IMG/VR virus record: IMGVR_UViG_3300003690_003731
Location: 1-36,718 of that record
Direction: 5' to 3' (one strand)
Origin: a virus
DNA: 36,718 bases
How positions within the stretch are numbered: position 1 is the stretch's first letter; the number at the start of each line of letters is the position of its first letter. The notes under the pieces were generated by a model that was not told where the DNA came from, searched no databases, and worked only from the letters and a program-made list of their open reading frames with translations. This document shows positions 1,227-36,718 of the stretch, one piece after another. The position numbers and the translations under genes were made by a program.

Positions 1227-1664
1227 ATGAAGCGCGTCAAAGATACCCAAACATTAGACATCTTTGAGGTGCCGGTGCCGGTCGTTCCTGCCCCAGGAAG
1301 CGGCAACTATGCCGCTCAAGTCAGCGAGCTAGTGGGTTTGGTGCTAAAGGATTGCCCCGTTGACCGCTACGAAGTAGCTGCACAAATGAGTCGTTTCTCT
1401 GGCGATGACGTTTCCAAGCACATGCTAGATGCGTGGTCTAGCCCTGCACGGAGCGACCACAACATCCCCTTCTATCGTATTCCGCTTCTTGAGGAAGTGT
1501 GCCAAAGCCACGCCTTAACCGACTGGATCGTTCACTTGCGTGGTGGGCGTGTGGCCTATGGCCGTGAAGCACTTGCCGCCGAGTACGGCAAACGCCAGCA
1601 GATGATGGAAAAGCTCAAAAGCGACATGAAAGAGCTGAAGCGCTTGATGGGGGATGACCAATGA
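1227..1664 (+). CDS. Conserved early-region protein of unknown function (145 aa)
   Basis: Not assigned to a characterised family. It lies between Ner and the transposase and ends in a 4-bp ATGA overlap with the transposase gene, so the two are translationally coupled. The N-terminus is proline/valine-rich (VPVPVVPAPGSG), the middle is predicted helical, and the last ~25 residues (KRQQMMEKLKSDMKELKRLM) are a charged amphipathic helix that could be a short coiled coil. Small proteins occupy this slot in several B3-type transposable phages. A role in transposition or in transcriptional control is possible but not shown by the sequence. Confidence 0.75.
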   Translation: MKRVKDTQTLDIFEVPVPVVPAPGSGNYAAQVSELVGLVLKDCPVDRYEVAAQMSRFSGDDVSKHMLDAWSSPARSDHNIPFYRIPLLEEVCQSHALTDWIVHLRGGRVAYGREALAAEYGKRQQMMEKLKSDMKELKRLMGDDQ

Positions 1665-3709
1665 ACTGGTACACCGCCAAAGACTTAGCGGGCTTGCCTG
1701 GCATGCCCCAATCAATCAGTGGCGTTATCCGCAAGGCCACGACCCAAGGCTGGGAAGCACAGAAGCGCATGGGTCGCGGCGGTGGCTACGAATACGCCTT
1801 TGCCGTTCTACCCACCGAAACTCAAAACGCACTGCTTTTGGCACAGGCGGATAACGCCGCGCCAACGCCCATCAGCACCGTAGCGCCGCAGCCAGAAGAA
1901 CAGCGCCCAGGCCAGCAGCAGTTGACCGATGCCCAGCGCCAGGTGATGACCGCTCGCGTGGCCTTCGTTCGCGAGATCGAACGCATGAGCAAGATGGTTA
2001 GCCAGCTGCGCGCCATCGAAACGTTAGTTGCTCACGCGAAGGAAGACGATCTAACGCCATATCTAAAGCAGCGCGTCGTGCTGGCCAACGACCGCAAGAC
2101 AGCCACGCGCAACCTGAGCGAGCGCACCCTAAAGCGCTGGATCGCTGACTTCCGCAAGCACGGCGAACGCGGCCTAGCCCCCAAGCGCCGCCAAGCGGAC
2201 ATGAGCATGCCGCCCTGGGCTGGTGATTTTCTCAAGCGCTACCAAAAGCCACAGAAGCCCAGCGTTGAAGCTGCCTACCAGCTGCTGGTCGAACAGACTG
2301 AACCGCCGCACCCTTCTATACACCAGGTGCGCCGCTGGCTTGCCAAGCTTTCACCGGAAGCACGGGAACGTGGCCGCATGGGCGCCCATGAGCTGAAAGC
2401 ACTCCAGCCCTTCAAGCGCCGCACCAGTGCTGAGCTATGGCCGAACGATGTGTGGGTCGCTGATGGCCACACCTTTGATGCTGAAGTGATCAACCCGCTC
2501 ACCGGCCAAGCGTTTAGGCCAGAGGTCACGCTGATTATCGACTGGGCAACGCGCCGGATCGTCGGCTTCGCCCTCAACCTTGCCGAGTCCACCGTGGCGA
2601 CGCTGGATGCGCTGCGCGATGCCGTTAGCCGCGTGGGCATGTTCAACCTGTTTTACGTCGATAACGGCAGCGGCTTTGATAACGCCACTGTTTATGAAGT
2701 GGTCGACCGCCTGGGTGGCACCATTACCCACTCGCTGCCTTACAACTCTCAGGCACGCGGCGTCATTGAGCGCGCCCACCAAAGCACCTTGGTAAAGCTG
2801 GCTAAAACCATGGACAGCTATATCGGTGCGGATATGGATAAAGAAGCATCTACCAAAGCTCACAAGCTCAGCCGCCGCGATATTAAAAAGGGCTTAAAGC
2901 CCGCGCTAATACCCACGTTTCAAGAGTTCTTTAATTCCTTAAACGAAGCGTTAAACGTCTATAACCACCGCCCGCATAAAGGGCTTTCTAAAGTGCGCGA
3001 TTTGGAGTCTGGAAGGCTTCGCAATCAAAGCCCTATGGAAGCTTGGAAGAGCGCTGAGGCCGAAGGCTTTGAAGCGCTGACCGCACCTAGCGATGTCGTT
3101 GCTTCCCTCATGCGCCCACAAGAAGTGCGCAAAACCAATCGCGGCGAAGTGCGCATCAACGGCGGCCTTTATTTCCTGGATGCCCTGCGCGACATGCACG
3201 GCGAAGAGATCCGCGTGGCCTGGGACTACCGCGACACCGGCAGCGTTGGCGTTTACACCCTAGATGGTGAGCACCTGGGCGACGCGATATTAGACGGCAA
3301 CGCCACCCCTGCCATGCCACCAACCATGATCCAGCGCGCCGCCGAGAAGCGCGAAAAAGGCCAGCTCAACCGCCTGGCGCAGAAGGCGAAAACCATCACC
3401 GGCAGTGATGTCGAGATCCGCGCCATTACCCCCGCCGCCAGCTATTCAGACGAAAAGCAGGCAGCCGCAGGCCGCGCCTACGCCAAGCAACTGGCGGATC
3501 AAGGCACACGCTTTCAGATACCCCACGACAAGATGGCGCGTTATCGGCTTTGGAAAAAGCTGGATGCCCAACTTCAGCAGGCAGAGGAAGTGCCGGAAGC
3601 AGCACGCGACTGGTACGAGCGTTACCAGCATCACAACGATTTTCGCGCTATCGCGAAAGTAATGGATGCGGACGGGCTGTCACCCGCCCGCAACCGACGG
3701 GCCGTCTAG
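1661..3709 (+). CDS. Mu-type DDE transposase A subunit
   Basis: A 682-aa MuA-family transposase (MuA is 663 aa) that cuts and joins phage ends during integration and replicative transposition. Residues ~2-60 are the Mu-type HTH domain (WYTAKDLAGLPGMP...). The central RNase-H-like core carries the catalytic triad: Asp268 (VWVADGH), Asp334 (FYVDNGSG) and Glu370 (GVIERAHQ). The Asp334-Glu370 spacing of 35 residues is the classical D,D35E arrangement. From ~residue 480 a Mu-transposase C-terminal beta-barrel follows (NRGEVRINGGLYF), then a basic tail likely to contact the MuB-like protein. It overlaps the upstream gene by 4 bp. No frameshift or loss of a catalytic residue is seen, so it looks intact. 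Confidence 0.97.
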   Translation: MNWYTAKDLAGLPGMPQSISGVIRKATTQGWEAQKRMGRGGGYEYAFAVLPTETQNALLLAQADNAAPTPISTVAPQPEEQRPGQQQLTDAQRQVMTARVAFVREIERMSKMVSQLRAIETLVAHAKEDDLTPYLKQRVVLANDRKTATRNLSERTLKRWIADFRKHGERGLAPKRRQADMSMPPWAGDFLKRYQKPQKPSVEAAYQLLVEQTEPPHPSIHQVRRWLAKLSPEARERGRMGAHELKALQPFKRRTSAELWPNDVWVADGHTFDAEVINPLTGQAFRPEVTLIIDWATRRIVGFALNLAESTVATLDALRDAVSRVGMFNLFYVDNGSGFDNATVYEVVDRLGGTITHSLPYNSQARGVIERAHQSTLVKLAKTMDSYIGADMDKEASTKAHKLSRRDIKKGLKPALIPTFQEFFNSLNEALNVYNHRPHKGLSKVRDLESGRLRNQSPMEAWKSAEAEGFEALTAPSDVVASLMRPQEVRKTNRGEVRINGGLYFLDALRDMHGEEIRVAWDYRDTGSVGVYTLDGEHLGDAILDGNATPAMPPTMIQRAAEKREKGQLNRLAQKAKTITGSDVEIRAITPAASYSDEKQAAAGRAYAKQLADQGTRFQIPHDKMARYRLWKKLDAQLQQAEEVPEAARDWYERYQHHNDFRAIAKVMDADGLSPARNRRAV

Positions 3710-3750
3710 ACCACGGCCCATGACACCCCAACCTTCGATAAGGAAGCACT

Positions 3751-4470
3751 ATGAGCGTCAACACTATTGTACCACTCACTAACGTCGGGCTACTCGCCGC
3801 TGCCGTTGAAAGCGCCGCCAACCGCCCGCCAGAACTGCCTGGTTTGGTGGTCATGTACGGCCCCAGCGGCTACGGCAAAAGCCTGGCTGCCGCCTATGCC
3901 GCCAACCTGCACCGCGCCTACTACGTCGAGTGCCGCGAAAGCTGGACAAAGAAAGCGTTCGTTGTCGCCGTGCTGCGTGAGATGGGCATCATCCCCATGA
4001 AAACGCTCAGCGAGATGGTCGACCAGATCGCCGAGCAGCTCTCACGCTCATGCCGCCCGCTGATTGTCGATGACGTCCAGTACGTGATCGACAAAGCCGC
4101 CGCCAACGTCCTCACCGACATCTATAACGCCAGCCAAGGCACCTTGATTCTGATCGGTGAAGAGCGCGTGCCCGCTTCAATGGCGCGGCTAGAGCGCCTG
4201 CATAACCGCGTACTGGAATGGGTGCCCGCTCAGGCCGCCAGCCTGGATGACGTGCGCGCCCTGGCTGACAAGAGCTACCCCGATATTGAGATTGACGACG
4301 ACCTGCTTGAAGCCGTTAACGACCGGGTAAAAGGCTGCCTACGTCGCGTCGCCGTCAACCTCTACCAGATCCACTCAGAAGCTACCGCCAACGGCTGGCA
4401 AATGGTCGGCCTGCGTGAATGGGGCGAGCGTGAGATCCACACCGGCCAACCACCGGCGCGGAGGGGCTAA
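3751..4470 (+). CDS. MuB-like AAA ATPase, transposition target selector
   Basis: A 239-aa AAA+ ATPase of the MuB type, which binds target DNA and stimulates the transposase. The Walker A motif is GPSGYGKS at residues 37-44 and the Walker B is PLIVDDVQ at 103-110. The sensor region GTLILIGEE and the C-terminal helical domain (RVKGCLRRVAVNLYQI) follow. It is shorter than MuB (312 aa) and lacks the N-terminal HTH domain, as in B3/D3112-type phages. Start: ATG at 3751 after AAGGAAG. It is separated from the transposase by 41 bp, an unusually wide gap for this operon. Confidence 0.92.
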   Translation: MSVNTIVPLTNVGLLAAAVESAANRPPELPGLVVMYGPSGYGKSLAAAYAANLHRAYYVECRESWTKKAFVVAVLREMGIIPMKTLSEMVDQIAEQLSRSCRPLIVDDVQYVIDKAAANVLTDIYNASQGTLILIGEERVPASMARLERLHNRVLEWVPAQAASLDDVRALADKSYPDIEIDDDLLEAVNDRVKGCLRRVAVNLYQIHSEATANGWQMVGLREWGEREIHTGQPPARRG

Positions 4471-23840: not shown

Positions 23841-24241
23841 TGCTGTCGCTCACGCCGTGGCTGGAACGCTTAAACGCCCTGGGCGGCCCGGTGGTGCAGC
23901 TAGCCGCCGATGTGGACGCTGCCCAAAGCGCCAAGGAATGGCCAAGCCGCATGCTAGTGCTAGGGCGTGACACCGTCACACATCACGACATGAGCAACGG
24001 AGCAACCCATCTCGTTAAGCCCGAGGTGTTACTCGTCACCGGTATTCAACGGATCAATTTGCCGCTGGGTAATACCGACGATGAGCTGACGCTACTGCGC
24101 AAGCCGATGCTGGACGGATTGATCAACTGGGTACCAGAAGGCTGCGATAGCGCCATCAAGTGGCAGCGCGGCCAAATCTTAGCCCTCAAACCACACGCAC
24201 TTTTCTGGGTCGACGTATTTACCACTGAATATCGGTGGTAG
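23840..24241 (+). CDS. Gp37-like protein, probable tail terminator
   Basis: A 133-aa Mu gp37-type protein (Gp37 family), expected at the head-tail interface as a tail terminator or completion protein. Visible are LTPWLERLNALGGPVVQLAA, SRMLVLGRDTVTHHDMSNGA, VLLVTGIQRINLPLG and a C-terminal LALKPHALFWVDVFTTEYRW. In Mu this is followed by a sheath gene; here a siphovirus tail-tube gene follows instead, marking the module boundary. Confidence 0.75.
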   Translation: MLSLTPWLERLNALGGPVVQLAADVDAAQSAKEWPSRMLVLGRDTVTHHDMSNGATHLVKPEVLLVTGIQRINLPLGNTDDELTLLRKPMLDGLINWVPEGCDSAIKWQRGQILALKPHALFWVDVFTTEYRW

Positions 24242-25273: not shown

Positions 25274-25597
25274 GTGTTCAAACTCAATACCAACCGCACC
25301 TTCAAGCAGCCCGTCAACCTCACGATTGTTGATGAAAACGGTAAAGATCAGAAAGGCTCCTTTACGGCCACCTTCAAAATTTTGCCGCACAGTGAATCCG
25401 CCGACTTGCCGGATGACATCAAGCTGCTAGATCGCGTGCTAATGGGCGTCGAAGGCATCGAAGTGCCGGGTGAAGATGGCCAGCCGCTAACCGGTGATGA
25501 GCTGATGACCGCGCTGAAAAATGACCCGTCTGCCTCGGTTGCGATGGCGAGCGCTTATCAGAGGAGCATCGTAAAAAAGAACCTTCCTCGGAACTGA
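25274..25597 (+). CDS. Tail assembly chaperone, short (G-like) form
   Basis: A 107-aa protein located between tail tube and tape measure, the universal slot of siphovirus tail assembly chaperones. Segments FKQPVNLTIVDENGKDQKGS, FTATFKILPHSE and LLDRVLMGVEGIEVPGEDGQ fit this family. It starts at GTG 25274 with AGGAG (25261-25265) 8 bp upstream. Near its end lies A_AAA_AAG, so most ribosomes would make this form and a minority the longer fusion. A short dyad, TTAAA-CAGCC-TTTAA (25231-25245), precedes the gene. Confidence 0.85.
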   Translation: MFKLNTNRTFKQPVNLTIVDENGKDQKGSFTATFKILPHSESADLPDDIKLLDRVLMGVEGIEVPGEDGQPLTGDELMTALKNDPSASVAMASAYQRSIVKKNLPRN

Positions 25598-25962
25598 TAC
25601 AGGCAGGCATCCACTGGGCTGAGGCCAGCACGGCTCAGCCCAACCTGGTCAAGGAAGACGTCTCCGCCTTGGGTATCACCCTCGGCGGAGAGCTGGCAGA
25701 AGAAGCAGAGGCAGCAGAAGCCGAGCCCGATCATTTTGATGTACTGCCCGAAAACTGGGACGCCGTTCAGATCTTCCTGCGCTGCTGCCGTCAGTGGATA
25801 TTTAGAGGAATGGAAGGCCACCGCGAGGCGCTAGATGTGCAAGCGGTGGTCAGCTTAATAAGCCTGTTTGCTCTTCGGCCAGAACAACAACTTGAGCGGC
25901 TGGATCAAGTGCAACTCATAGAGCGCGGCGCGCTTAGCGTCATGAACCAATCCCGCAATTAA
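25274..25962 (+). CDS. Tail assembly chaperone, frameshifted long (GT-like) form
   Basis: Predicted 229-aa fusion made by -1 frameshifting at A_AAA_AAG. The zero-frame part is 25274-25579 (102 codons); reading resumes at 25579 and runs to 25962. The T part reads EPSSELIQAGIHWAEASTAQ, then LGITLGGELAEEAEAAEAEP, DAVQIFLRCCRQWIFRGMEG and ALDVQAVVSLISLFAL, resembling the DUF1799-type tail proteins. No ATG with an SD starts the T part on its own; only a TTG at 25669 exists. The ratio of short to long form usually matters for tail assembly. Confidence 0.8.
25560..25579 (+). promoter_or_regulatory. Programmed -1 ribosomal frameshift site (A_AAA_AAG)
   Basis: In the G frame the codons are GTA AAA AAG, so the heptamer A AAA AAG occupies 25573-25579, the same slippery type as dnaX. 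An SD-like AGGAG at 25562-25566 lies 6 nt upstream and may stimulate slippage. The -1 frame is open through to 25962, and the zero frame stops at 25597, 18 nt after the site. Confidence 0.85.
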
Positions 25963-25979: not shown

Positions 25980-28900
25980 GTGGCTCAAGATCTAACGCTA
26001 GGCGTCAAGCTAACGGGCGATGGAAGCCAGCTTTCGGGCACCCTAAAGGATGTCCGAAATGACGTGCGGGAGTTTGGTACCACTACCGAGCGAGAGGGTG
26101 ATCGTTCAGAACGATCGCTCAGCGATTTCGGGAGTACAGCACAAAAAGAAGGCAGTAAGGCAGCGCGCGCACTTCGATCCACAGGGACAGAAGTGTCGTC
26201 GGTATCTAACCACTTGGGCAGTATGCAGCGCATAGCCACCGCTGCGCTGACTACCCTGGTGGGCTTTGTCGGCATCCGAGGCATCAGCAATGAGTGGTCG
26301 GAGATTCGACGTGAATCCGAGCTGTTGGAGCGTAACCTGTTTCGCCAGCAGCAGTTGATCGAGACGACCGGCAGAACCGCTGAGCGATCGGCACAACAGA
26401 TGCTAGAGCAATCGAGAGCGCTAGCGTTGGGTACCCTTCAAAGCACAGAAGGGGTCATGCAAGCCCAGCAAACCCTGATGACCTTTAGGAATATTCGAGG
26501 AGAAGTGTTTGACCAAGCCATTGAGGGCGCCCTTGATCTAGCGTCCGCTATGGGCACTGATTTGAACAGCACCATTCTGCAGGTGGCCAAAGCGCTGGAA
26601 GATCCTGTCACGGGGATGACGGCCCTCACCCGATCGGGCACGGTGTTCACTGCTGCACAGCGCGATATGGTGCGCGGCATGGTGGAAACCAATCGTACCG
26701 CAGACGCACAGGCATTCATCCTGAGCGAACTGGCCGCCCAGTACGGCGGTGTTGCGAAAGCCGAAGCAGCGGGCCTGGCAGGTGCTCAAGACACGATAGG
26801 CCAGGCGATGCAGGAAGCACGGCTGGAGATTGGTGAATATCTACAAGTCGGAAAACGCCTATCTGCTTTTTATAACAACACTGCAACGACCATTTTCCAG
26901 TTCAACGATGCACTGGGGTCTGGTGACTTAGACGGTCATATCCGCCTGATGACAACTACCGCCGCTGCTGTGGGTGCTGCTGCTGGTGCCTATGCAACCT
27001 ATCGAGCCATTCTGGTCTCAGCAACGGTGGCTCAGTGGGCATTTAACACGGCGGTTCGCGCCAATCCTCTCGGCATCGCTATTACCCTGCTGGGCGCTGC
27101 TGCGGGCGCTATGTTTGCCTATCGCGAGGAAGTAACCCTAGCTGGAAGTGAGTCGTTTCAAACCTCTATTGATGTTGATGGGCTTACCAGCTCTTTTCAC
27201 CTTCTCACCGAAGCCCAACAGGAAAACAAGCGCGCCTCACTCACTGCCGATTTAATCGAAATGCGTGTGGAAGCTGGCCGCTTGGGCAGCGAGTTGGTAG
27301 AGGTTTCGCGCAAGGTACGTAACTCTGGCCAGCTCACCCCGCAAGGCGGTGCACTGCCTGTTGCCACGCCTGAAGACATTCAGAAAGGCCGTGAACTACG
27401 CCAAGAATTAGGCATGCTGTTATCTGATATTGATAACGGCTCCCAGCTACTAAGTGAATACGACCAAGCAATGGCATCGCTTGGTGAGACCACCCGCGAT
27501 ACCGACACACGCACAAGAACGCTGGCTGAAACAAATGCCGCCGCATCCAAAGCAGCTGATGAACTAGCCAAATCCACCCAGGGCCAAGCCGACGCCCTAG
27601 AAGACCTCTACGATCGCTTAATCCCAGGCCGCCGCGAAACCGTCCAGCTAGCGCGAGATATCCAGACGCTGAACCTGGCCATCGCCATGGGCACCGGCAA
27701 CATCGGGCAGAACATTCAGGCGATGGGGCTGCTACAACAGCAGTTCATCGAAGCCCAGAACGACACCGACGACCTCGCTAAAAAGACGGTAGACGCCGCC
27801 TTCACGATGGAAGGCGCCTGGGACGAAGTGCGCCTGAATGGTTTGCGCCGCTTAGATGACGGCTTTACCGATCTCTGGGAAGGCGCGATCGACGGCAGCC
27901 TGAACGCTGGCGAAATCATGAAGCGGGGGTTAAATCAAACGCTGGCTGAGATGGGCCAAATGGCCTTTACGCGGCCAATCACTGTGCAGTTTGCGACCAG
28001 CATGGGGTTTGGTGGTACCGGCGCTGGTGGCCAGCAGGCTGGCGGTGGCGCTCAATCCTTCGGCGGTATGCCTTCGTTTAGCGGCATGATGGATGGTAGC
28101 GGCGCGATCGCTAACGCCTACCGAGCTTTCCAAGGCACTGGCTCCACCTACGCGGGCACCTTCGGCAGTGAGTTAGCCGTTCAAACCCAAGGCGGCTTAA
28201 AAGCCGGTTTTGAATCCTTTGCTGCCAGTGGCGTAGGTAATGCCACGTTAGGTCTTGGTGGCGGTTTCGTTGGCAGTAAGCTTGGCGGTTCGGTATTCGG
28301 CGAAAGCAAAGAGCAGCAGATTGGCGCCACGGTGGGTGGTATAGCTGGGCAGGTATTAATCCCTATCCCTGGCGTTGGCGCTGGCATTGGATCGTTCCTG
28401 GGCAGCGGCCTCGGTTCGCTGTTCGGCAGCGCACCCACAAAATTTAGCGGTCGCTTTGGCACTACCGCATCACTCGACCGTAGCGAGGGTGCGGGCAAAG
28501 ACGGCGTGTTTGAACACCAGGCCGATGGCCGCTTCTACCGCGAAACCGCGCTGGGTTATGCGGGCTTCCGCGACCAGGGCACGGAACGCCTACAGCGTGC
28601 AGGCGTCGGGGAAGACAAGCAGTGGGCGGAGGATCTCGTCAACGCTACCGCCGCCATGGACGCCTTAACGGTCAGCGTAGCCCGCTCTGATGAGCAGGTT
28701 TCGACGATGCGCGACACCGTGCAAGGGCTGGAGGCGTCAGGCCGAAACGCCGGTGAGATCATTGAGTTTGCGCTCAAAGGCCGCGCCCTGGCCGCCCTGG
28801 AGTCGATCGGGTACACATTCAGCGACGCTGTTAGCTCACTGCCTGCCGATGAGTTCACGGCTCGCTTAGAGATCATGGCAGGCGGCATGGGCGTGCTCAT

Positions 28901-31499
28901 GCAAAGCACCGACCGCCTAAACCTTAATTTCGACGCCACCGCCGCAGGCGCTCTGGAGGCCGCCGGTAATCTCGCCCAGATCGCCGGTGGCGTTGATAAC
29001 CTCGCCGCGATCAATCAGGGCTACTACCAGGCCACCTACAGCGAAACCGAACGCCTAAGCCGCTCACAAGCGGATCTTCGCGCCTCACTGGCGGGCGTTA
29101 CCGATCAGGTGCCTACCACGGTTGCAGAACTACGCAACATGGTCGAAGCCCAGAACCTGAATGATGCAGCCGCAGGCGAACTGGCCGTGCGGCTAATGGA
29201 GCTAGCCCCGGCACTCAAGCAAACCAACGACGCAGTGCGCCAGGCCATCGAAGAGCAGTACCAGGAAAGCCTAGGCCGCGCCCCAGATGCGTCGGGCATG
29301 GACTACTGGTTTAACCAGGTAGCGACTGGCGGTGCAACGTTAGAGCGTGCCCTCTCAGCGATCGCCGCCAGCTCAGAAGCCGCCGCATTCGCGGCTGAAG
29401 ATGCAGCGGGCAGCGTCGATACCATGGCTGATGCGCTGCGCGAGCGTGAGCAGCTTGAACGCCAACTACTGACCCTGGAAGGCAACACAGCCGAGCTACG
29501 CCGCCGTGATCTTGAAGCGACAGACGAAAGCAACCGAGCGCTTCAGCAGCGAATTTGGGCCGTGCAAGATGAGCAAGAACGCCTGCGCAACTTAGAACGA
29601 CAGCAGCAAGAACGTGTGCGCACGATCCAGCAAGAAGCATCCGCCATGGCCCGCGCCCGAGAGCAGCTAGCCAGCTTTGGCGTCAGCATCACCAGCTACG
29701 TAGATAACCTGCGCAGCACCGACGCCGGTTTGGGCTCACCTGCCGACCAGCTAGCTGCCAGTTCTCAAGCGTTTTACGAACAATACGACAAGGCGGCATC
29801 GGGCGACCGTGATGCGATGAACAGCATCACGCAATATGCAGACCGATTTATTGAAGCCCAGCAAGGCTGGAGCGCGAGCGGTAGCCAGACGACGGCGACG
29901 ATCGACAAAGTCGTAGGCATGCTGGAATCGCTGCCCGAACAGCTTAGCCCTGAGCAATTTTTGGCGGATGAGTTCAGGGGGATCATCACTGATCAGACAG
30001 AAACACTAGGTGATGTATTTGGCAGCGGCTTTAGCAATGCCATCACTTCGCTCTCTCAGAACTTTGACCAGCTCGATACGAATTTGAATGGTCTGCTGAC
30101 TTACGATGAGATTAAAAGAGCGTTAGGTGACAAGGCAACAGACGCCCAGGTTGCAGTATTAATCGCTGCCGTAGATACAAACGGCGACGGCATGATCAGT
30201 CGCCAAGAGCTGACCAATGCCCGGTTGGGAGGGCTAGCAAAAGGCGTTGCATCATCGCTAGAGGGGTCATTTGACCTCTTAGACACCAGCTTAGACGGAT
30301 TGCTGACCTATTCTGAGCTGAGGCAAGGCCTGGGCGGGCTCGCAACTGACGCCCAAGTAAAAGCCATGATGCGCAGTATGGATCTCAACGCCGATGGCGT
30401 CATCAGTCAGTTAGAGAGTGTCGTTATCGCAAGCATGCCCACAGATGCGGTACTCGGTACCGTACTTCGCAACAAAATGACCGAAGTGGGCAGCCGTCAA
30501 TTGACCCACAGTCAGGTTCGCAATGCACTCTCCCCGATTGCAACCGACGCTGAAATTAGCCGATTGATACGCGAAGTCGATGTTAACGGCGACGGCATGA
30601 TCAGTCAGCAAGAACTGACTAATTCGCGCCTTGGCGGGTTGTCCCACGGGATCGCTAACGCTGTTGCCGGTGAATTCGACCGTATCGACCTTAGCGCTGA
30701 CGGACTGATCGACTACAACGAGTTTCGTAAGACGTTTGCCGGAATGGCGACCGACAGCCAGCTGCGCCGAATTTTTAACCAGCTGGATGCGACGCGCACG
30801 GGCACGATCTCACGTCTAGATGCGCAAACTAATGAGCTCGTAACAGCCGCTAAGTCTATCGACCTGTCCGAACAAGAACAGTCCATTGTCCGCGCCTTAA
30901 ATGCGCAGCAAAACTCGGACACAGTTCGTTGGTGGGGTTGGAATTTTGCTAATGAGTTCCAGCGTAAGTTTAAACCGTCGGTTGGTGAGGGCATTGGTGT
31001 CTCGCTTGCACCGGCGCAAAACGGCGATGGCGCACGTTCGATTGCAAAAGCGTTCAAGCAAATTCTTGGTGCCAATACAAACGGCTCTCACGCAACCGGA
31101 CTGGGTTATGTCCCGTTTGATGGCTATATCGCAGAACTGCACAAAGGCGAGATGGTCGCGACCGCGGAAGATGCAAAAGTGCTCCGAGAATTGGCGGGTG
31201 GTGCTGCGATGTCAGCTCCGCCGATGCCAGCCCCGCGCGGGCTACCCATGCCCACGTTGCCCGCGTTCCCACTACTCGACCAAAGCGATCAGACGCAGCT
31301 AATGCGCGACGTATTAAATGAAAACAAGCAGCTACGCGCTGACATTAAAAAGCTGATGAGTGAAAGCAACAAACACCTGGCAGCGGCCAATAACCAACGC
31401 GGTGCGGCGGCGAAGGGGCAGATCGGCGCCATCGAGCGCGGCAACAAGATGCTTAAGCGCATGGACGATGACAAGCGGCTGGAGGCGGCGAAACGATGA
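25980..31499 (+). CDS. Tape measure protein with DUF4214-like and EF-hand repeats
   Basis: A 1839-aa tail tape measure protein. Start GTG 25980 with AAGGA upstream. The N-terminal ~90-300 region (STEGVMQAQQTLMTFRNIRG, LTRSGTVFTAAQRDMVRGMV) is TMP_2-like; hydrophobic segments lie at ~325-385. A Gly-rich stretch covers ~670-820. A DUF4214-like segment is at ~1091-1137 (QYQESLGRAPDASGMDYWFN). Seven EF-hand-like loops begin at residues 1366, 1399, 1435, 1468, 1534, 1570 and 1603; an eighth, near 1503, is degenerate. The end carries YVPFDGYIAELHKGEMV, usual in tape measures. Calcium-binding repeats in this place are unusual. The 3' end overlaps the next gene by 4 bp. Confidence 0.93.
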   Translation: MAQDLTLGVKLTGDGSQLSGTLKDVRNDVREFGTTTEREGDRSERSLSDFGSTAQKEGSKAARALRSTGTEVSSVSNHLGSMQRIATAALTTLVGFVGIRGISNEWSEIRRESELLERNLFRQQQLIETTGRTAERSAQQMLEQSRALALGTLQSTEGVMQAQQTLMTFRNIRGEVFDQAIEGALDLASAMGTDLNSTILQVAKALEDPVTGMTALTRSGTVFTAAQRDMVRGMVETNRTADAQAFILSELAAQYGGVAKAEAAGLAGAQDTIGQAMQEARLEIGEYLQVGKRLSAFYNNTATTIFQFNDALGSGDLDGHIRLMTTTAAAVGAAAGAYATYRAILVSATVAQWAFNTAVRANPLGIAITLLGAAAGAMFAYREEVTLAGSESFQTSIDVDGLTSSFHLLTEAQQENKRASLTADLIEMRVEAGRLGSELVEVSRKVRNSGQLTPQGGALPVATPEDIQKGRELRQELGMLLSDIDNGSQLLSEYDQAMASLGETTRDTDTRTRTLAETNAAASKAADELAKSTQGQADALEDLYDRLIPGRRETVQLARDIQTLNLAIAMGTGNIGQNIQAMGLLQQQFIEAQNDTDDLAKKTVDAAFTMEGAWDEVRLNGLRRLDDGFTDLWEGAIDGSLNAGEIMKRGLNQTLAEMGQMAFTRPITVQFATSMGFGGTGAGGQQAGGGAQSFGGMPSFSGMMDGSGAIANAYRAFQGTGSTYAGTFGSELAVQTQGGLKAGFESFAASGVGNATLGLGGGFVGSKLGGSVFGESKEQQIGATVGGIAGQVLIPIPGVGAGIGSFLGSGLGSLFGSAPTKFSGRFGTTASLDRSEGAGKDGVFEHQADGRFYRETALGYAGFRDQGTERLQRAGVGEDKQWAEDLVNATAAMDALTVSVARSDEQVSTMRDTVQGLEASGRNAGEIIEFALKGRALAALESIGYTFSDAVSSLPADEFTARLEIMAGGMGVLMQSTDRLNLNFDATAAGALEAAGNLAQIAGGVDNLAAINQGYYQATYSETERLSRSQADLRASLAGVTDQVPTTVAELRNMVEAQNLNDAAAGELAVRLMELAPALKQTNDAVRQAIEEQYQESLGRAPDASGMDYWFNQVATGGATLERALSAIAASSEAAAFAAEDAAGSVDTMADALREREQLERQLLTLEGNTAELRRRDLEATDESNRALQQRIWAVQDEQERLRNLERQQQERVRTIQQEASAMARAREQLASFGVSITSYVDNLRSTDAGLGSPADQLAASSQAFYEQYDKAASGDRDAMNSITQYADRFIEAQQGWSASGSQTTATIDKVVGMLESLPEQLSPEQFLADEFRGIITDQTETLGDVFGSGFSNAITSLSQNFDQLDTNLNGLLTYDEIKRALGDKATDAQVAVLIAAVDTNGDGMISRQELTNARLGGLAKGVASSLEGSFDLLDTSLDGLLTYSELRQGLGGLATDAQVKAMMRSMDLNADGVISQLESVVIASMPTDAVLGTVLRNKMTEVGSRQLTHSQVRNALSPIATDAEISRLIREVDVNGDGMISQQELTNSRLGGLSHGIANAVAGEFDRIDLSADGLIDYNEFRKTFAGMATDSQLRRIFNQLDATRTGTISRLDAQTNELVTAAKSIDLSEQEQSIVRALNAQQNSDTVRWWGWNFANEFQRKFKPSVGEGIGVSLAPAQNGDGARSIAKAFKQILGANTNGSHATGLGYVPFDGYIAELHKGEMVATAEDAKVLRELAGGAAMSAPPMPAPRGLPMPTLPAFPLLDQSDQTQLMRDVLNENKQLRADIKKLMSESNKHLAAANNQRGAAAKGQIGAIERGNKMLKRMDDDKRLEAAKR

Positions 31500-33809: not shown

Positions 33810-35363
33810 ATGGCGAGCGTAACGTTTCCCGAAGAACTAGGTGGCAATGGCCAGACCTACACCGACGACGCAGACCCGGACACAGGCCTGGACGGCCTAG
33901 GTTACACCGTCCGGTTTATACCGTGCTTAAAGCAAGCAGTAGCGATGTCTGCCTTCGCCAAGGCAAGGGCGGTGGACGTCGATCAGTTTGTAGCATTGTG
34001 CCAAGATCTAAGCGAGCAAGTGGCTACCGATAAACAAGCTGTTGCCGACGACCGCCTCCACATCGATCAACAAAAAGGCCTGGTAGACGATGCCGCTCAG
34101 CAAGTGGCTACCGATAAACAAGCTGTTGCCGATGACCGACTCCATATCGATCAGCAAAAAGGCTTGGTAGACGATGCCGCTCAGCAAGTGGCTACCGATA
34201 AACAAGACGTTGCCGATGACCGCCTCCATATCGATCAACAAAAAGGCTTGGTAGACGAAGCCGCTCAGCAAGTGGCTACCGATAAACAAGACGTTGCCGA
34301 TGACCGCCTCCACATCGATCAACAAAAAGGCCTGGTAGACGATACCGCTGAGCAAGTGGCTACCGATAAACAAGCTGTTGCCGATGACCGCCTCCACATC
34401 GATCAACAAAAAGGCCTGGTAGACGACGCCGCTGAGCAAGTGGGTATCGATAAACAAGCTGTTGCCGATGACCGCCTCCACATCGATCAACAAAAAGGCC
34501 TGGTAGACGACGCCGCTCAGCAAGTGGCTACCGATAAACAAGCTGTTGCCGATGACCGCCTCCATATCGATCAACAAAAAGGCCTGATAGACGATGCCGC
34601 TCAACAGGTTGCTACCGATAAACAAGCTGTTGCCGACCTAGCGTTCGCTGCCGGTCAGTCAGCGAACGCTGCTGAAACAGCGAAAACGGACGCCGAGGAT
34701 CTATACGGTGACCTCGCTGCAGTAGAGGCGGCGCGTAACGACGCATCCAACTCGGCAACCGAAGCGGCGGACTCTGCGTTGGCTGCCCAAGCCGCCGCGA
34801 ATCAGCTGAGCGGTGTAGCAGTAGGCGAGGTACGGATGTTCACGTCTGCGCTACTACCACCAAATTGGCGTATTTGTGACGGTCATTATTTGGAGGAAGG
34901 CGTAGCCGACCCCCTACGCACACAGCTTTTAGACGCTGAATCCCCGTTCGGGAGTTTTTTTGGCGACCCGAAAGTACCGGATTTGCGGGGCCGTTCCCCG
35001 GTAGCGGCCACACTCGCCCCTACCGCTGGGGCGCCACTAACCCAATTTGATGTGGAGCTAGGCGAGACTCGCGGCCAAGAGACAACTACCCTAACGGCCG
35101 ACAACCTGCCGACTCACTCCCACGAGTTCACTGTGACAGCGGCCACTGACAGCGCCGGGCAGAGCACGCCCGCTACAGGAGACTACCTAGCCAGCGGGAG
35201 AGTTAATCTCAATGACCCTGTTCGTAATTACTTCCGTGGCACCCCTACCGAGACAGTCGAGCTAGCAAACGATCAGACAGCCGATGCGGGTAACGGTCAG
35301 AGCTTCACAAATTTACCGCCCCAACTGGGGCTCGTGTTCGCTATTTATGCGGGCGTTAACTGA
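33810..35363 (+). CDS. Tail fibre with 28-residue repeats and C-terminal collar domain
   Basis: A 517-aa fibre protein. After an N-terminal attachment part (~1-68), seven near-identical 28-residue units follow (QVATDKQAVADDRLHIDQQK + GLVDDAAQ), plus a partial eighth. 28 residues is four heptads, so a long rod-like coiled coil (probably trimeric) is expected. A further Ala-rich helical segment leads into a tail-collar domain from ~345 (GEVRMFTSALLPPNWRICDG, FFGDPKVPDLRGRSPV, LGETRGQETTTLTADNLPTH with THSH, ending PPQLGLVFAIYAGVN). The C-terminal domain is the likely receptor-binding tip. No invertible segment or Gin-type invertase is seen, unlike Mu. Confidence 0.9.
   Translation: MASVTFPEELGGNGQTYTDDADPDTGLDGLGYTVRFIPCLKQAVAMSAFAKARAVDVDQFVALCQDLSEQVATDKQAVADDRLHIDQQKGLVDDAAQQVATDKQAVADDRLHIDQQKGLVDDAAQQVATDKQDVADDRLHIDQQKGLVDEAAQQVATDKQDVADDRLHIDQQKGLVDDTAEQVATDKQAVADDRLHIDQQKGLVDDAAEQVGIDKQAVADDRLHIDQQKGLVDDAAQQVATDKQAVADDRLHIDQQKGLIDDAAQQVATDKQAVADLAFAAGQSANAAETAKTDAEDLYGDLAAVEAARNDASNSATEAADSALAAQAAANQLSGVAVGEVRMFTSALLPPNWRICDGHYLEEGVADPLRTQLLDAESPFGSFFGDPKVPDLRGRSPVAATLAPTAGAPLTQFDVELGETRGQETTTLTADNLPTHSHEFTVTAATDSAGQSTPATGDYLASGRVNLNDPVRNYFRGTPTETVELANDQTADAGNGQSFTNLPPQLGLVFAIYAGVN
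34017..34637 (+). repeat. Tandem 84-bp repeat in the tail fibre gene (7.4 copies)
   Basis: Units start at 34017, 34101, 34185, 34269, 34353, 34437 and 34521, with a partial eighth at 34605-34637. The period of 84 bp keeps the reading frame. Units differ by a few bases, some silent (GACGACCGCCTC versus GATGACCGACTC) and some changing a residue (GCT to GAC, GCTACC to GGTATC). High identity suggests recent expansion or conversion, and copy number could change by recombination. Confidence 0.97.
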
Positions 35364-35778: not shown

Positions 35779-35976
35779 ATGGTGTTAATCGAAATCCGTT
35801 GTACGCGGTGCAACCGCAAGCTGGCCAACGTCAGCGATTACCAGTTCATTGAAATAAAGTGCCCGCGTTGCAGGCACTTAAACCAGCAGAGAGCCGCGAG
35901 CTCCAAGCCCGTAAAGGAGATGTCTCGTGGCTACCCCAATCATTCCATGGATGGGCGGCAAGCGCCGCCTAGCTGA
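35779..35976 (+). CDS. com: Com-like zinc-finger translational activator
   Basis: A 65-aa protein of the Mu Com family. Two CxxC knuckles are visible, Cys8/Cys11 (CTRC) and Cys28/Cys31 (CPRC), in IRCTRCNRKLANVSDYQF-IEIKCPRCRHL. Mu Com binds the mom mRNA and opens a hairpin that hides the mom start codon. Here the gene overlaps the methylase gene by 50 bp in another frame, so Com is likely the translational activator of that methylase. The start ATG 35779 has TAAGG upstream. Confidence 0.85.
   Translation: MVLIEIRCTRCNRKLANVSDYQFIEIKCPRCRHLNQQRAASSKPVKEMSRGYPNHSMDGRQAPPS
35893..35931 (+). promoter_or_regulatory. Start-codon hairpin at the com-methylase junction
   Basis: GCCGCGAG (35893-35900) can pair with CTCGTGGC (35924-35931) over 8 bp including one G.U. 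The methylase GTG start (35927-35929) lies within the 3' arm. The SD AAAGGAG (35913-35919) lies in the 23-nt loop. The whole element is inside the com reading frame, as in Mu com-mom. It is a candidate Com-controlled translation switch. Confidence 0.65.
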
Positions 35977-36718
35977 CCGTATCTTTCCACTGATGCCGCC
36001 GCACCAGTGCTACGTAGAGCCCTTCGCAGGAGGGGCCGCGCTGTTCTTTCTGCGGCCATCGCCTGCCGAAGTAGAGGTGCTGAATGACGTTAACGGCGAC
36101 CTGGTGAACCTCTACCGTGTTGTGCAGAACCACTTGGAAGAGTTCGTCAGGCAGTTCAAATGGGCACTCTCCAGCCGCCAGGTGTTTGAGTGGCTCAAGA
36201 TGACTCGGCCTGAAACACTCACTGACATACAGCGTGCGGCTCGCTTCTATTACCTACAGCAGAATGCTTTCGGTGCCCGCATCGAAGGCCAGACGTTTGG
36301 CACTGCCACTACCACACCACCAGGCTTGAACCTGCTGCGCCTAGAGGAGACGCTCTCAGCGGCTCACTTGCGCCTATCAAGCACCTTTATAGAGCACCTA
36401 AGCTGGCAGGACTGCATTGAACGCTATGACCGCCCGCACACACTCTTCTATATGGATCCGCCCTACTGGCAGACAGAGGGGTATGGTGTACCCTTTGGCA
36501 TAGAGCAGTACGAGGAAATGGCGAGCATGTTGGCAAAGCTCAAGGGCAAGGCCATCATCAGCCTCAACGACCACCCAGACATCCGCAGGATCTTCGCGGA
36601 CTACCACATCGAAACCACCGACATCCGCTATACCGTCGGCGGCGGCAAAGGCTCAGACGCCAAAGAGGTGCTGATCTTTAGTTGGGATGTGGACGCAGAA
36701 CCGGCGGGATTGTTTTGA
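35927..36718 (+). CDS. DNA adenine-N6 methyltransferase, D12 class (Dam-like)
   Basis: A 263-aa D12-class methyltransferase that transfers methyl from SAM to adenine N6. Motif X is PWMGGKRRL near residue 7-15, the SAM motif I is VEPFAGGAALFF (30-41), and the catalytic motif IV is DPPY (177-180). Length is typical of Dam-like enzymes (Dam is 278 aa). Start is GTG 35927 with AAAGGAG upstream; the start is hidden in a hairpin. It takes the place of Mu mom. Likely role: protection of phage DNA from host restriction, or methylation of phage promoters. The recognised sequence cannot be read off the protein. Confidence 0.92.
   Translation: MATPIIPWMGGKRRLADRIFPLMPPHQCYVEPFAGGAALFFLRPSPAEVEVLNDVNGDLVNLYRVVQNHLEEFVRQFKWALSSRQVFEWLKMTRPETLTDIQRAARFYYLQQNAFGARIEGQTFGTATTTPPGLNLLRLEETLSAAHLRLSSTFIEHLSWQDCIERYDRPHTLFYMDPPYWQTEGYGVPFGIEQYEEMASMLAKLKGKAIISLNDHPDIRRIFADYHIETTDIRYTVGGGKGSDAKEVLIFSWDVDAEPAGLF

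Follow-up and report, generated by a model that had tools for sequence, protein, structure and literature searches.

An array of calmodulin-like EF-hands in a variable C-terminal slot of siphophage tape measure proteins

Many phages need calcium for infection, and the site at which the ion acts is often obscure; how the tape measure protein (TMP) leaves the tail and aids the passage of DNA across the cell envelope is also an open question. Both matters are raised by a complete virus record (36,718 bases; hereafter the window), in whose TMP gene an initial annotation had pointed out a series of EF-hand-like motifs. Are these motifs genuine EF-hands, are they maintained for calcium binding, and what might they do for the phage? 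The analyses described below indicate that they almost certainly form a calmodulin-like EF-hand accessory module, which occupies a variable slot near the C-terminus (i.e., the tail-tip end) of a siphophage TMP. Conserved, countable Ca2+ sites at that end of the TMP, together with sister phages in which their number is zero, two or thirteen, make both questions testable.

The gene set of the window is that of a Mu-like transposable phage. PHROG matches included a CI-like repressor, a MuA-type transposase (1661-3709) and a MuB-type protein (3751-4470), and on the head side a terminase, a portal, a MuF-like minor head protein, a head protease and a major head protein; tail genes follow, and the PHROG search of the record found no sheath match among them. 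Judged from this gene content, the tail is probably siphovirus-like. The layout is also Mu-like (1-717 on the minus strand, 1227-4470 and 35927-36718): the repressor, a Mor-type regulator and the MuA/MuB-type proteins lie at the left, and the right end has a D12-class adenine methyltransferase. A DNA-level search of a reference phage collection returned no similar phage. The nearest relative is a prophage of Halomonas campaniensis, whose orthologous TMP is 75-78% identical, and the host is therefore probably Halomonas or close kin. The order of genes around the TMP gene is typical of TMPs (tail tube at 24235, TAC-like at 25274, DUF1799 at 25669, TMP at 25980, then tip and collar genes), and the protein has, in addition to its PHROG match (Table 1), a TMP_2 match at 7.3e-6, which is under the Pfam cutoff.

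Table 1. Features of the tape measure protein gene of the window.
Feature	Position	Strand	Remarks
TMP gene	25980-31499	+	1839 aa, GTG start; phrog_27166 1.6e-23
DUF4214 domain	29247-29384	+	residues 1090-1135; PF13946 2.7e-7, above cutoff
Conserved TMP domain (SITQYAD region)	29622-30014	+	residues ~1215-1345; alignments A3/A4
EF-hand array	30045-30830	+	residues ~1356-1617; eight hands, four pairs; PF13499 2.2e-30; six-frame search (four matched stretches); AF2 model
EF1 loop DTNLNGLLTYDE	30075-30110	+	loop start residue 1366
EF2 loop DTNGDGMISRQE	30174-30209	+	loop start residue 1399; PS00018 match
EF3 loop DTSLDGLLTYSE	30282-30317	+	loop start residue 1435
EF4 loop DLNADGVISQLE	30381-30416	+	loop start residue 1468; PS00018 match
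EF5, degenerate	30492-30515	+	loop shortened to ~SRQLTHSQ, residues ~1505-1512; helices retained in AF2 model
EF6 loop DVNGDGMISQQE	30579-30614	+	loop start residue 1534; PS00018 match
EF7 loop DLSADGLIDYNE	30687-30722	+	loop start residue 1570; PS00018 match
EF8 loop DATRTGTISRLD	30786-30821	+	loop start residue 1603; weak
C-terminal TMP motif GSHATGLGYVPFDGYIAELHKGEMV (GEMV-type)	31068-31199, approximate	+	common to EF-less TMPs

All seven loop starts given in the initial annotation were exact, but the literal motif to which it had assigned them, D-x-[D/N]-x-[D/N/S]-G, fits only those at residues 1366, 1399, 1468 and 1534. In the loops at 1435 (DTSLDG) and 1570 (DLSADG), position 3 is Ser, which is an accepted ligand, and the loop at 1603 is weak because it has Thr at positions 3 and 5 and Asp at position 12. 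The spacing of loop starts (33/36/33/66/36/33 over 30075-30821) bears out the alternation of 33 and 36 described earlier, and the degenerate hand suspected near residue 1503 is real; in relatives that have the 66-residue spacing, the hand at this place is degenerate as well. The loops are those of the EF-hand superfamily (i.e., 12 residues with ligands at positions 1, 3, 5, 9 and 12 and Gly at position 6), and six of the eight hands have all side-chain Ca2+ ligands, with Asp/Asn/Ser at positions 1, 3 and 5, Ser/Thr/Asp at position 9 and Glu at position 12. The strict motif was matched four times, compared to 0.19 expected from shuffles of the whole TMP, and the PROSITE-type pattern PS00018 also four times, compared to 0.04; a six-frame search of the window found no PS00018-type motif outside the array. 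The Pfam families EF-hand_7 (PF13499), EF-hand_1 and EF-hand_5 matched at 2.2e-30, 6.2e-23 and 2.1e-20, respectively, all above their gathering cutoffs. Shuffles and profile scores together rule out chance motifs. More specific labels were set aside: Dockerin type I (PF00404) scored 18.9 bits against a cutoff of 22.9, the NCBIfam model of XopAW-type EF-hand effectors 58.7 against 120 bits, which reflects generic EF-hand similarity, and the SPARC label was likewise generic or sub-cutoff. Among all EF-bearing TMPs, loop position 4 is hydrophobic in 53 of 73 odd-type hands vs. 1 of 136 even-type hands, which hints at two affinity classes; the affinity of odd hands is uncertain, as a hydrophobic residue at position 4 is outside the PROSITE consensus.

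Residues 1330-1650 were modelled with AF2, using only the window and six relatives, at a mean pLDDT of 72.6 (mostly 77-91 over the last 190 residues). The model contained the four EF-hand pairs that had been proposed from the spacing, each a helix-loop-helix pair with loop strands joined in a short beta-bridge, with the best confidence in the second half and moderate confidence in the first, so that the paired hands of the EF-hand superfamily are predicted here too. The best Foldseek matches of the array model in the PDB were, apart from one axonemal protein, calmodulins (E ~1e-4, probability 1.00); among viral models Foldseek found no match at E<=0.001. As the model of the last 799 TMP residues was poor (pLDDT 51, pTM 0.23), we make no claim on how the array packs against the rest of the protein.

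The array is not peculiar to this phage. By protein search, TMP kin were found in 49 of 275 Halomonas-family genomes, and an HMM made from the loops counted 0 to 13 hands per full TMP, spaced by 33/36, or by 66 around a degenerate hand. Further relatives came from viral contigs scanned by DNA pattern and by alignment, among them lineages with 12 hands at 36/41 (L175) and with a 77-residue unit (L187). After removal of truncated TMPs the set held 57 full-length proteins (45 clusters at 70% identity), each with 2-13 hands, and in all of them the hands lie in the C-terminal part: the first hand is at 0.56-0.87 of the length and the last is 191-436 residues before the end. Of 63 TMPs, 59 had TM-like segments upstream of the array and none had them downstream; in the window TMP, no segment exceeded the hydrophobicity threshold applied. 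In 21 diverse EF-bearing ORFs, tape measure families made up most of the 25 commonest PHROG matches (phrog_24 in 11 ORFs, phrog_25966 in 8), and TMP_2 matched 10 of the 21. Clustering by N-terminus placed nearly all TMPs in one group and was uninformative.

What stays constant around the array is its flanks. The SITQYAD-region domain lies directly 5' of the EF arrays in TMPs that are otherwise diverse (alignments A3 and A4), and the GEMV-type C-terminal motif closes the slot on the other side. The EF-less TMPs L007, L069, L072 and L073 retain both flanks and have other modules in between, so Ca2+ binding would be dispensable for this tail type in general. The slot of L072 contains a second DUF4214; in L073 and L074, it is filled, in the C-terminal third of the TMP, by long arrays of ~30-residue helical repeats (SNRYLTTVNIVLGSNINSADRRLAL type) in the place of the EF-hands of close relatives, Pfam giving no match at all on L073 and only a sub-cutoff DUF533 on L074; and in L076-L079 the slot, again within that third, carries FDEAAYLANK-type repeats (FDEAAYLANKTAQVNA...HYxxxGRxEG), a module with no Pfam match of its own. 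These comparisons reveal a hypervariable module slot in the TMP, which is clearest in halophile prophages.

Occupancy of the slot changes readily. On a tree of the flanking domain, EF presence changed 8 times, with at least 6 of the changes on well-supported branches, and sister TMPs differ in hand count (11 in L049 vs. 3 in L063; 2 in L054 vs. 4 in L056). The arrays grow by DNA duplications, either of 405 bp, equal to four hands, or of 210 bp; what is left of this process in the window is one pair of 63-nt segments, 405 bp apart and 78% identical. In L050 and L051, a 70-residue unit (DKNADGIIDAAE type) stands beside 135-residue units, i.e., two duplication modes in one array.

Such a patchy distribution (EF presence changing 6-8 times on the tree) and the occurrence of EF-less sisters are what would be seen if a repeat-rich slot simply tolerated inserts and the array persisted as a functionless passenger, but the calcium ligands make this most improbable. 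The H. campaniensis prophage shares every one of the 35 ligand residues with the window (dN 0, dS 1.33 at ligand codons), which is retention despite saturating synonymous change, while the array helices have a dN of 0.054 and a dS of 0.79, and the dN/dS of the array is ~0.07. Over 12 TMP pairs, which were partly non-independent and in which some regression is expected because in each pair a profile had picked the hands in just one of the two TMPs, identity was 95% at ligands (300 sites), 79% at other loop positions and 74% in array helices, with 73% in the 350 residues upstream and 64% downstream of the array. The near-invariance of ligands in alignment A4 was left out of the evidence, since its loci had been fetched with EF-loop patterns. 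These results support purifying selection on the side-chain Ca2+ ligands and already weaken the idea of a passenger, against which also stand the identical position of the array in distant TMPs and the independent arrays with other spacings (36/41 in L175, 77 in L187).

A different origin was suggested in the initial annotation, which had considered the array to be possibly host-derived. A fragment of a host calcium-binding protein, recently fused to the TMP, would fit the abundance of EF-hands among cellular proteins and the match of the XopAW-type NCBIfam model at 7e-16, even if below cutoff. For the likely host this origin is unsupported: in five Halomonas-family genomes (G001, G234, G053, G247 and G257) every EF-hand_7 match was in a prophage TMP, with no other host protein matching PF13499 at E<=0.01. 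The composition of the array is also close to that of the rest of the gene (GC 0.536 vs. 0.579; GC3 0.58 vs. 0.60), and widely diverged TMPs have the array in common. On the five-genome result and the GC, recent host capture was rejected as very unlikely. With the A3 profile, EF-bearing TMPs were found in 19 of 275 Halomonas-family genomes and in none of ~765 others from the class and phylum (18/274 vs. 0/765 with the centre genome G001 removed from both sides; Fisher p 2e-11), a contrast that is only indicative because the profile includes Halomonas sequences and has its highest sensitivity among them, and because the class and phylum samples may include a few family members.

Free Ca2+ in bacteria is micromolar or less inside the cytoplasm; sea water and, probably, the periplasm contain millimolar concentrations. 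While the hands, their pairing and fixed position, the selection on ligands, and the gain, loss and growth by duplication can be read from sequence, the working of the array has to be proposed. That it binds Ca2+ physiologically is likely, and in the virion it would be located at the tail-tip end (compare PMC10276861 and PMC7296036). Calcium probably acts in DNA delivery by these phages, given that eight hands are near the tail-tip end and that related rulers have 2 to 13 at the same place. The best explanation overall, which we hold tentatively, is that an accessory module at the tail-tip end binds Ca2+, being soft in the cytoplasm and folding outside. The cytoplasm, where the TMP is made and the tail assembled, is low in Ca2+, and there the array would be apo and compliant and could therefore occupy the narrow tail lumen or tip chamber; in the millimolar Ca2+ of the medium or periplasm, the pairs would fold and stiffen and might anchor the TMP C-terminus at the tip. 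Alternatively, during ejection, the stiffened pairs could make exit of the TMP to the periplasm one-way and steady the DNA conduit. We put forward this soft-then-stiff mechanism, as tip hold or one-way exit, with somewhat more reserve than the overall reading. The calcium-dependent release or membrane passage envisaged in the initial annotation is putative and fits the array position, C-terminal to the hydrophobic segments. Rather doubtful is a stronger version, in which the Ca2+ gradient acts as a ratchet: the array would keep the TMP soft in the cytoplasm, then fold in the Ca2+-rich periplasm and pull the TMP from the tail or lock it outside, and array length would be adjusted to the host envelope or ionic habitat.

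The range of 2-13 hands, the 405-bp and 210-bp duplications and the fast turnover of copy number between close relatives are also consistent with a Ca2+-stabilised spacer, a rod-like extender whose copy number sets the reach of the TMP C-terminus, be it within the tip or across the periplasm, or lengthens the tail, with Ca2+ as a constant structural ion and not a signal. Filling of the same slot with ~30-aa helical repeats in L073/L074 points the same way, and there is precedent in TP901-1, where the residue number of the tape measure sets tail length (PMC5099701). The strict retention of ligands over helix surface is not needed by a plain spacer, though a Ca2+-dependent rod would need it. A Ca2+-stiffened spacer, itself a guarded suggestion, is nearly as likely as the folding or one-way-exit mechanism. 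It is possible, if less probable, that the Ca2+-loaded pairs dock calmodulin-style on a partner peptide of a tail-tip, host periplasmic or inner-membrane protein and that the slot sets host specificity; the swapping of slot content among related phages and the calmodulin-like fold found by Foldseek would suit such docking, but array helix surfaces are less conserved than ligands and the partner is hypothetical.

EF-hands are well known, as are tape measures; their combination is new in the literature searched: no paper described EF-hands within a TMP, and papers containing both terms treat them separately, apart from one on a pneumococcal choline-binding protein (PMC5137146) that was set aside as off the subject by its title and abstract. 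The view that the array is unusual in phage TMPs holds in this respect, but not as to occurrence, since dozens of TMPs have arrays of 2-13 hands, always at the same position. Calmodulin pairs are spaced by ~36 residues. The array resembles the EF-hand pair family (PF13499, calmodulin superfamily) in its loops (D1, N/D/S3, D/N5, G6, I/L8, E12), paired helix-loop-helix hands and calmodulin-like fold, and differs in its pair spacing of 33, in the frequent collapse of every fourth hand, in having up to 13 hands and in being inside a phage TMP. In length, hydrophobic segments, GEMV-type motif and gene place after the major tail protein and assembly chaperones, the protein that carries the array is like other siphophage TMPs (phrog_27166, phrog_24, TMP_2, lambda gpH type), from which the EF-hand array in the C-terminal slot sets it apart; TMP profile matches fall outside the array. 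Among reference phages, only EBPR siphovirus 2 has an EF pair in its TMP: gp77, a partial TMP annotated only as 'similar to tail protein', carries the pair after the same SITQYAD-region domain, but has two hands only, one of them degenerate. The phage lysin LysGH15 has an EF-hand-like calcium site (PMC4022735), but this is a single site in a CHAP domain and not a TMP array, and the structural proteins of TP-84 were screened for EF-hands with none found (PMC5889276). For the proposed working, RTX repeats of type I secretion substrates may serve as an analogy only; these repeats bind Ca2+, vary in number, lie near the C-terminus, and stay unfolded in the cytosol until they encounter Ca2+ outside, upon which they fold (PMC8486122; PMC6891781). 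Unlike the EF-hands of a phage tail, they are nonapeptide beta-rolls secreted by ABC transporters, and no RTX family (GGxGxDxUx-type repeats) was among the Pfam matches of the window.

The window contains a second repeat, outside the TMP gene. In the collar/fibre-type protein at 33810-35363, an 84-bp tandem repeat (34015-34636; 7.4 copies, 94% match) encodes the 28-aa unit QVATDKQAVADDRLHIDQQKGLVDDAA, and the near uniformity of its copies suggests that it expanded recently.
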